Source: Geobacter sp. UBA1603 (GTDB taxonomy: Bacteria; Desulfobacterota; Desulfuromonadia; Geobacterales; Pseudopelobacteraceae). From it: DNA of 24,653 nucleotides. Below are positions 7,805-9,692 of this stretch, piece after piece. The stretch is taken from contig DCNF01000043.1 in the NCBI GenBank assembly GCA_002322035.1, positions 49,023-73,675 of the forward strand, given 5' to 3'. The first letter of the stretch is position 1; each line of letters begins with the position of its first letter. A model generated the notes under the pieces. That model searched no databases and had not been told where the DNA came from. It saw nothing but the letters and a program-made list of their open reading frames with translations. A program made the position numbers and the translations under genes.

Positions 7805-7840
7805 AGCGTCCGTGCATTACAGCATGGGCGCTTTTTTCTT
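7805..7840 (+). terminator. Intrinsic terminator after yidC
   Basis: The arms AGCGTCCGTGC (7805-7815) and GCATGGGCGCT (7822-7832) form an 11-bp stem with two G-U pairs and a 6-base loop. The T-run TTTTTTCTT (7832-7840) follows directly. It lies 28 bases after the yidC stop and 14 bases before the preferred EndoQ start, so it closes the rpmH-yidC operon. Confidence 0.8.
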
Positions 7841-7853
7841 GATCGGAGCGTTC

Positions 7854-9146
7854 GTGGAGTATCGTGCCGACCTGCACATTCATTCCCCCTATTCCCGGGC
7901 CACCAGCCCCGAAAGCACCATGGCCGGTCTGGCCGGCTGGGCGAGAGTCAAGGGCATTGCCGTTGTCGGAACCGGAGACTTTACCCATCCAGCGTGGTTC
8001 AGGCAGGTGAGTGAAAACCTGGAACCGGCCGAGCCAGGTCTGTTCCGCCTGAAACATGAAGAAAGTATCCGGCTACCGTTCCCTGGAGTGATAACCGATG
8101 ATGGGCCGGTGCGCTTCATGCTCTCCGCTGAGATCAGCTGCATCTACAAACGCCACGGCCGGGTCCGCAAGGTCCATAATCTGCTTTACGTGCCTGATAT
8201 GGCTTCGGCCGCGCGCCTGAATCAACGGCTGGCGGCGATCGGCAATATCGTTTCGGACGGAAGGCCGATCCTGGGGCTGGACAGCCGGGACTTGCTGGAG
8301 ATTCTGCTGGATGAAGCGCCGGAAGGCTTTCTTGTGCCGGCCCATGCCTGGACGCCATGGTTTTCTCTGTTCGGATCGAAATCAGGTTTCGACTCTATCG
8401 AGGAGTGCTTCGGCGACCTGTCGTCCCATATTTTTGCCATTGAGACCGGCCTGTCTTCGGATCCGGACATGAACCGCCGTGTCTCCGGCCTGGACCGGAT
8501 GGCGCTGATCTCCAACTCCGACTGCCACTCACCCTCAAAGCTGGGGCGCGAAGTTAACCTCTTCTCGACCGGCCTGGATTACTTTTCTTTGCGGGACGCC
8601 CTTCGCGGCAATTGCCGCGAGACCTTTCGCGGAACCGTGGAATTTTTTCCAGAAGAAGGAAAATACCATGCTGACGGGCACCGTGAATGCGGTGTTCGTC
8701 TCGATGCAGCCGAAAGCCGTGCCCGGCGTGGAATCTGCCCGGTATGCGACAGGCCGCTTACGATCGGAGTTATGAGCCGCGTGCTGGAACTGGCCGACCG
8801 GAGTGAGCCGTTTTTCCCAGGGGACGCCCCGGAGGTGTTCAGCCTGGTACCGCTGCCGGAACTGCTCGGTGAACTGCTTGATGCTGGTCCCTCCACCAAA
8901 GGGGTCACGGCAGCTTACCAGCGTGTACTCTGCGAGTTTGGCTCCGAGTTCGGGCTGCTGCTCCAGGCGCCACTGGAAGAGATCGGGCATTTTTCACCAC
9001 TGCTGGCCGAGGCGGTGCGGCGTATGCGTCAGCGAGAGGTTCTTCGCTGCCCGGGCTTCGATGGCCAGTACGGGGTCATCAGAGTTTTTGCTGAAGGCGA
9101 ACAGGCCCGGCTCGGGCTTGAAGCCGGTATTCTGTTGAAACGGTGA
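7854..9146 (+). CDS. Endonuclease Q family PHP-domain protein
   Basis: Recognised as the EndoQ family: PHP-fold nucleases that, where characterised in archaea and some bacteria, cut DNA 5' to deaminated bases such as uracil and hypoxanthine. From GTG 7854 it has 430 residues. Metal-binding PHP motifs are DLHIHS (residues 6-11), GTGDFTHP (39-46), AHAWTPW (163-169) and SNSDCHSP (220-227). A zinc-finger-like module follows, with His272, His276, Cys279, Cys295 and Cys298 (CPVC), then LTIGVMSRVLELADR and a helical tail. The frame is open back to 7812, but that start lies in the terminator stem; GTG 7854 has GGAG five bases upstream and leads straight into VEYRADLHIHS. The selenoredoxin gene starts 9 bases after its stop. 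Confidence 0.85.
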   Translation: MEYRADLHIHSPYSRATSPESTMAGLAGWARVKGIAVVGTGDFTHPAWFRQVSENLEPAEPGLFRLKHEESIRLPFPGVITDDGPVRFMLSAEISCIYKRHGRVRKVHNLLYVPDMASAARLNQRLAAIGNIVSDGRPILGLDSRDLLEILLDEAPEGFLVPAHAWTPWFSLFGSKSGFDSIEECFGDLSSHIFAIETGLSSDPDMNRRVSGLDRMALISNSDCHSPSKLGREVNLFSTGLDYFSLRDALRGNCRETFRGTVEFFPEEGKYHADGHRECGVRLDAAESRARRGICPVCDRPLTIGVMSRVLELADRSEPFFPGDAPEVFSLVPLPELLGELLDAGPSTKGVTAAYQRVLCEFGSEFGLLLQAPLEEIGHFSPLLAEAVRRMRQREVLRCPGFDGQYGVIRVFAEGEQARLGLEAGILLKR

Positions 9147-9155
9147 GGTGACACC

Positions 9156-9692
9156 ATGGCCAGTCTTGTCGGAAAAGCAGCGCTGCCGTTTATGCTGAAA
9201 GGTTTGGGTGGCGACATCCATTCATGTGATGACTATCGTGGCAGCTGGCTTCTCCTGATGTTCCACCGTCATCTGGGGTGACTGCCCTGCCGGGCGCACA
9301 TCACGCAGTTGCGTGACCACGAGAACGAACTTAACATGCTTGGAGTGAAAGTCGCCGTTGTGACGTTTTCCCACGACTTCATGGCTCGGGCCTATGTTGA
9401 GGACACTGGCCTGGCCTGGCCGCTGCTGCTGGACGAGGACCGCCAGTTGTACCGGTCCTACGGTATGCTGTCGGCATCATTCTGGGACCTGTGGGGCCCG
9501 TCCTCCTGGATTGCCTATGGCAGGGAGATCATGAAGGGGAATATGCCGAAACCGCCTGCTGGAGATGTCTATCAGCGGGGCGGGGACGTGCTGATAGATC
9601 CCGATGGAATTGTCCGCCTTCATCATGTTGGCAGCGGGCCGGCCGACCGCCCTTCAGTTGAAAGCATTCTGGCACTGATCAGAAAGACATGA
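9156..9692 (+). CDS. Peroxiredoxin-like redoxin, predicted selenoprotein (Sec42)
   Basis: Thioredoxin-fold redoxin of the AhpC/TSA or peroxiredoxin-like group. ATG 9156 (AGGTG five bases upstream) opens MASLVGKAALPFMLKGLGG, and the frame meets TGA at 9279-9281, then continues without a stop to 9692. Reading TGA as selenocysteine gives 178 residues with FHRHLG-U-LPCR, a UxxC redox motif (Sec42, Cys45) just after the first core strand, where family members carry CxxC. Sequence on both sides of the TGA reads as one continuous fold (LLLMF before; HITQLRDHENEL, VKVAVVTFS after; LLDEDRQLYRSYGM; GGDVLIDPDGIVRLHHVG). A bacterial SECIS-like hairpin follows the TGA. The gene sits between the EndoQ gene and mnmE and overlaps mnmE (ATGA). 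Alternatives are a real nonsense mutation or a base error; both seem less likely. The peroxidase or reductase substrate is unknown. Confidence 0.85.
9279..9316 (+). promoter_or_regulatory. TGA(Sec) codon and candidate bacterial SECIS hairpin
   Basis: After the TGA (9279-9281), TCACGC (9301-9306) and GCGTGA (9311-9316) form a 6-bp stem around the 4-base loop AGTT (9307-9310). The loop starts 26 bases after the TGA and has G in its second place. This fits the known bacterial SECIS pattern: a small apical loop with a G in the first two positions, about 16-37 bases from the UGA. A second short stem, GCCC/GGGC (9283-9294), lies nearer the TGA. Confidence 0.7.

Follow-up and report, generated by a model that had tools for sequence, protein, structure and literature searches.

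A redoxin gene crossed by an in-frame TGA in Geobacter sp. UBA1603 very probably encodes a SelL-related UxxC selenoprotein

Introduction

Peroxiredoxin (Prx)-like thiol:disulfide oxidoreductases of the Pfam family PF00578, with a UxxC or UxxU motif in which U is selenocysteine (Sec), are listed among the predicted prokaryotic selenoproteins (PMC13188914, PMC9312934). A Prx-like thiol:disulfide oxidoreductase also appears, in a list that gives no motif, for G. sulfurreducens, G. metallireducens and other organisms (PMC1794560), and a UxxC family is described in Geobacter and Desulfotalea-type organisms beside TxxU peroxiredoxins (PMC1914089). A Prx-like family with UXXC is reported from the Sargasso Sea (PMC1088965). 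SelL, a Prx-like protein, is named among the families present in both prokaryotes and eukaryotes (PMC2398784) and is described as carrying two Sec residues, two residues apart (PMC3316567). Here we analyze a redoxin gene with an in-frame TGA in a 24,653-nucleotide stretch of Geobacter sp. UBA1603 (contig DCNF01000043.1, positions 49,023 to 73,675 of the forward strand; hereafter the window, in whose coordinates all positions are given). We conclude that the product of this gene is very probably a selenoprotein belonging to the SelL-related, Prx-like UxxC family, with a stem-loop at 9301-9316 directing UGA to Sec.

Results

The redoxin gene occupies 9156..9692 on the plus strand and comprises 178 codons and a stop; the codons, stem-loop, ribosome-binding site and short reading frame described below are on the plus strand too. 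As the original prediction had claimed, the frame opens with ATG at 9156, crosses a single TGA at 9279-9281 (codon 42) and then stays open to the stop TGA at 9690-9692; translated with Sec at codon 42, it gives a 178-residue product (MASLVG...FHRHLG-U-LPCRAH...IRKT) with a U-L-P-C motif. Cys45, the partner of U42 in UxxC, is encoded by TGC at 9288..9290. Two family profiles span the TGA: Pfam PF00578 (AhpC-TSA) matches residues 5-154 with 71 bits, and NCBIfam NF040769 (SelL-related redox protein, cut-off 120 bits) reaches 186.1 bits over residues 11-174. Because both profiles align across the TGA, the frame is not open there by chance, and the redox features predicted on its two sides do belong to one redoxin. 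In 24 comparisons with relatives, change at codon positions 1/2/3 was 0.38/0.29/0.68 for codons 5-41, upstream of the TGA, and 0.31/0.21/0.56 for codons 43-102, downstream of it. This third-position excess on both sides argues that the two parts evolve as one coding frame.

A strong homologue is present in 10 of 57 relatives (own genome included; E ≤ 4.8e-75), each time with exactly one in-frame TGA. Some match (E ≤ 0.001) is found in 52 of the 57, and those beyond the ten all have E ≥ 3e-8 and no internal stop. A search of the phylum found matches at 1e-30 in 8 of 395 genomes, all with one TGA, two of the eight being already among the 57 relatives. We also searched for a DNA locus with cysteine (Cys) at codon 42, as a negative control for a selenocysteine insertion sequence (SECIS), using the Cys-form database protein P0005 as query. 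At 1e-25 it matched genomes in two sets: 4 of 392 in the phylum to which L058 belongs (L058 is a Pirellulaceae record, and its own genome is one of the four) and 4 of 154 in one class, with one genome common to both. Every match in these 392 and 154 genomes was a TGA form, which leaves database proteins as the only Cys forms known here.

One listing of 38 loci contained 11 of the close type (L049-L059, 49-66% identity), and its other 27 (21-33%) were not used. Overall, 34 loci yielded 29 distinct sequences, with named loci including Geobacter sp. UBA6151, Desulfuromonas, Desulfobulbaceae and Pirellulaceae. Codon 42 is TGA in all 29, and codon 45 is a Cys codon in all 29 (TGC in 26, TGT in 3). 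The 46-member alignment that we built consists entirely of sequences matching NF040769 at E ≤ 0.001. The guess that the DNA is Geobacter-type also fits: in G034, which belongs to the same family, locus L020 has a gene identical in sequence to that of Geobacter sp. UBA6151 (L049). In one further locus, L097, an extra TAG falls within the match and is apparently the gene's own stop, since the translation has none earlier.

The TGA could in principle be a genuine stop or an error in the sequence, in which case the gene would be decaying or would make a short protein from an internal start. Such a short open reading frame (ORF) does exist: the standard ORF list holds only 9309..9692 (127 aa, TTG start), which lacks the active site, as had been predicted, and the protein-collection model of the gene, P0002, is shorter still (118 aa, first residue = 61). 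Codon 52, moreover, is always TTG in 25 sequences, and most listed database models begin past residue 42. Against this stand the TGA common to all 29 distinct loci, which makes a sequencing error very unlikely, the conservation of the upstream 41 codons as protein, and the fact that the shorter product has neither the redox motif nor the opening strands of the fold. We consider this explanation very improbable.

Two protein searches together listed 236 different proteins, P0002 and the query P0005 included, as the best 120 of 1003 and the best 120 of 282, with distant Cys homologues falling outside this count. Residue 42 is absent in 225 of the 236; six have CxxC (P0005, P0006, P0123 and P0125-P0127) and five have WxxC (P0003, P0004, P0007, P0059 and P0124). 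In 221 of the 225 the alignment is empty ahead of position 42, three have 2-3 residues there, and P0122 has 32 residues before it and lacks the stretch around the motif. Residue 42 is thus absent in nearly all of them because the gene model starts later, a count that describes protein models rather than the DNA of codon 42. One of the Trp-bearing proteins, P0124, is 309 aa long and has about 130 extra residues (an extra Pfam domain, PF19135) ahead of the redoxin, possibly a fusion or a gene-calling artefact.

Tryptophan in 5 of the 11 listed proteins that have residue 42 would be expected if a reassigned code read TGA as Trp. The other 6 of the 11 have Cys, however, and Trp would destroy the UxxC motif; both the redoxin gene (9690-9692) and the gene upstream of it end in TGA. 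P0004 is identical to L057 at 156 of 177 positions, and the L057 DNA has TGA. The W forms are therefore probably a translation-table artefact in which TGA was translated as Trp, with TGA presumably also in the P0004 DNA. A reassigned code is, in our judgement, next to impossible.

Downstream of the TGA, a candidate bacterial SECIS stem-loop lies at 9301..9316 (TCACGC-AGTT-GCGTGA). For bacterial SECIS elements, the published limits allow loops of 3-9 nt and stems of 4-16 bp, and they require a G in the first two loop positions, a spacing of 16-37 nt and a minimum free energy ≤ -7.5 (PMC13188914). The candidate falls within all of these, with a 6-bp stem, the apical loop AGTT (9307-9310) with G in second position, 25 nt from UGA to loop, and -7.9 kcal/mol. 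The CGCAGTTGCG core is unchanged in 25 of the 29 distinct loci and has one substitution in three, while L096 differs.

We tested covariation across 25 distinct aligned sequences, with 7 pairs and 500 shuffles. Stem cells pair in 95.4% of cases (shuffled mean 82.8), 17 cells are changed on both sides (shuffled mean 4.6), and the covariation score is 0.285 against 0.074 in shuffles, none of the 500 shuffles reaching any of these values. Four of the seven pairs never vary in the 25 sequences, the outermost (seventh) pair is unpaired in 8 of the 25, the window sequence included, and RNAalifold returns the same 6-pair stem as its consensus. A lower hairpin, at 9283-9296, forms when the window sequence is folded and is absent from the consensus; we discarded it. 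Codon 52 (Leu) overlaps the loop in part, and all 25 sequences have TTG there, although TTG makes up only 31 of 244 other Leu codons counted nearby. This invariance could partly have another cause, as codon 52 also starts the listed short ORF; a structural role is favoured by the paired changes on either side.

The original prediction had called for a check for selA, selB, selC and selD, and all four are present in the genome, which is 75.9% complete: selA (608 bits), selB (302 bits; 330 bits with in-frame neighbours), the Sec tRNA gene selC (76.5 bits, anticodon tca) and selD (L015 on C93, 358 bits). Further, selA is found in 9 of the 10 gene-holding relatives and in 8 of 8 further gene-holding genomes (those behind L050, L051, L053 and L055-L059). 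The selD match has one in-frame TGA, in the motif AAGUAAKLG, and so appears to be a selenoprotein gene itself.

Several observations weigh against the selenoprotein reading or blunt its evidence. The co-occurrence with selA discriminates little, because selA is present in 52 of the 57 relatives anyway, and one gene-holder, G011 (88% complete, 460 contigs), has no selA. The window stem on its own is moderately unusual, being formed by 514 of 20000 synonymous recodings, and 0.8% of 5000 synonymous recodings reach the fold energy of the window 51 nt. Pairs with a double change number 3, a value that 137 of 500 shuffles reach, and further pair types number 6, reached in 108 of 500; neither is exceptional. 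The distant homologue L096 (38% identity to P0005) has neither a stem in the same register nor the CGCAGTTGCG core. None of 33 other loci (counting duplicates, with flanks of 1.5-2.5 kb, some ending at contig ends) has the window neighbours YidC, TIGR00375-like, MnmE and MnmG beside the redoxin. We infer Sec insertion at UGA 9279-9281 rather than observe it, which counts on this side as well. No Rfam family matched the window at gathering scores, and the SECIS_1 model found no match in the own genome; since that model matched none of 14 control genomes (silent in 14/14), its silence is uninformative and carries no weight, and neither null counts against a SECIS in the final weighing. By eye, an alternative hairpin (CACCTG-GTT-CAGGTG) can be drawn for L096 closer to the UGA, a possible shift of SECIS register.

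Weighed together, the evidence strongly supports the selenoprotein reading of the original prediction, and none of the observations that it had named as arguing the other way, such as a lack of homologues with Cys or Sec at residue 42 or of selABCD, was made: this residue is encoded by TGA in all 29 distinct DNA loci and is Cys in 6 of the 11 database proteins that have it. The SECIS candidate and the existing record of the family go beyond that prediction, which named neither.

The predicted model (predicted local distance difference test, pLDDT, 92.4) has a peroxiredoxin/thioredoxin fold, as classical peroxiredoxins do. Their active site, T/SxxC (or TxxU), is absent, with U at the Thr position. 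In a family-profile search of solved structures (best match 1.3e-11), U42/C45 aligned with the CEPC of ResA, and they also align with the CxxC of human prostamide/prostaglandin F (PGF) synthase. In the model, U42 directly precedes a helix spanning residues 43-53.

From the reading frame, its conservation, the candidate SECIS, the Sec machinery, the fold and the motif register, we propose the following scheme. SelB with Sec-tRNA would bind the stem-loop at 9301-9316, and UGA 9279-9281 would be decoded as Sec, giving a 178-residue redoxin that is probably cytosolic, as no leader is seen by eye. The U42 selenolate, at the first UxxC position, would probably attack a disulfide or peroxide substrate, C45 would then resolve the intermediate to a selenenylsulfide, and thioredoxin or a similar reductant may reduce it.

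The same register allows a peroxidase rather than a disulfide reductase, with C45, at the peroxidatic-Cys position of peroxiredoxins, attacking peroxide and U42, at the Thr position, resolving. Yet Sec occupies the first, usually exposed, position and never position 45 (29 of 29 loci), and the best solved-structure match by family profile, at 1.3e-11, is the disulfide reductase ResA. We regard a peroxidase as conceivable, though not the likelier role.

The redoxin ATG is preceded, 7 bases 5', by GAGG at 9145..9148, a likely ribosome-binding site from its likeness to the Shine-Dalgarno consensus. Nine bases separate the end of the upstream gene (7812-9146) from the ATG; at the other end, the mnmE start at 9689 overlaps the redoxin stop as ATGA. 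These gene ends agree with those predicted, and the predicted operon fit looks local to the window, given the 33 other loci; we therefore rejected an operon role with YidC, the TIGR00375-like gene, MnmE and MnmG. The name EndoQ proposed for the upstream gene is uncertain and was not confirmed: the gene has no Pfam match, and TIGR00375 scores 170 bits, below its cut-off of 326.6.

No neighbour is common to at least three loci outside the redoxin gene (25 loci rechecked; 28 at first look). Four pairs of loci share one or more neighbours: L050/L052 an upstream flavin (pyridine nucleotide-) disulfide reductase/oxidoreductase and a VTT-domain protein, L087/L090 a downstream rhodanese-like protein, L056/L092 a GAF-HD protein, and L021/L049 a thioesterase-like protein. 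In a fifth pair, L022/L053 (24% identity), the two proteins look by eye like separate members of the large ABC ATPase group, and the pair was set aside. The disulfide reductase in L050/L052 hints weakly at a possible electron donor for the redoxin; together with the rhodanese it would loosely fit a thiol-redox role, and the shared pairs do not settle function.

Discussion

Our analysis corrects the gene: collections hold it truncated ahead of the active site, and nearly all of its close listed relatives likewise (225 of 236). Most likely, then, this stop-bearing redoxin is a case of a known kind that is routinely cut short in gene databases. Its patchy distribution (10 of 57 relatives) and unshared neighbours suggest that the gene may often move or be lost.

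Many Cys relatives exist for most selenoproteins. A more tentative idea, which we think rather doubtful, is that this branch is a redoxin nearly always needing selenium: Sec is predicted in all 29 distinct loci, from deltaproteobacterial relatives to Planctomycetes, the SECIS core is nearly unchanged, and no Cys-form DNA was met, even when the query was a Cys form. If true, this would suggest that the substrate reaction demands more than sulfur can offer; should the scarcity of Cys forms hold, the family would lend itself well to testing why certain redox enzymes retain selenium.

Among known systems, the redoxin resembles the NF040769 family at 186.1 bits, with no difference found. SelL of fish and sea squirts is a named Prx-like relative; it has UxxU with two Sec, whereas codon 45 here is a Cys codon in 29 of 29 distinct loci, which sets the redoxin apart from SelL proper. 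SelL uses a eukaryotic SECIS. No selenoprotein L structure is among the structure matches listed, an absence without meaning. Human prostamide/prostaglandin F synthase (9us9, 9usa), presumably PRXL2B, aligns at its CxxC but has Cys for Sec and 22-23% identity. ResA aligns its CEPC with U42/C45; it is a membrane-anchored extracytoplasmic protein, while the window redoxin has no visible leader. The listed Prx-like oxidoreductases share with the window redoxin, as far as their listings describe them, the Pfam family, the UxxC motif and the bacterial group, and we liken the two by family and motif rather than by orthology with the representative WP_010940744.1. It is thus well supported that the window redoxin joins an already known kind of selenoprotein, Prx-like members of which are, in the lists cited above, already on record for Geobacter.
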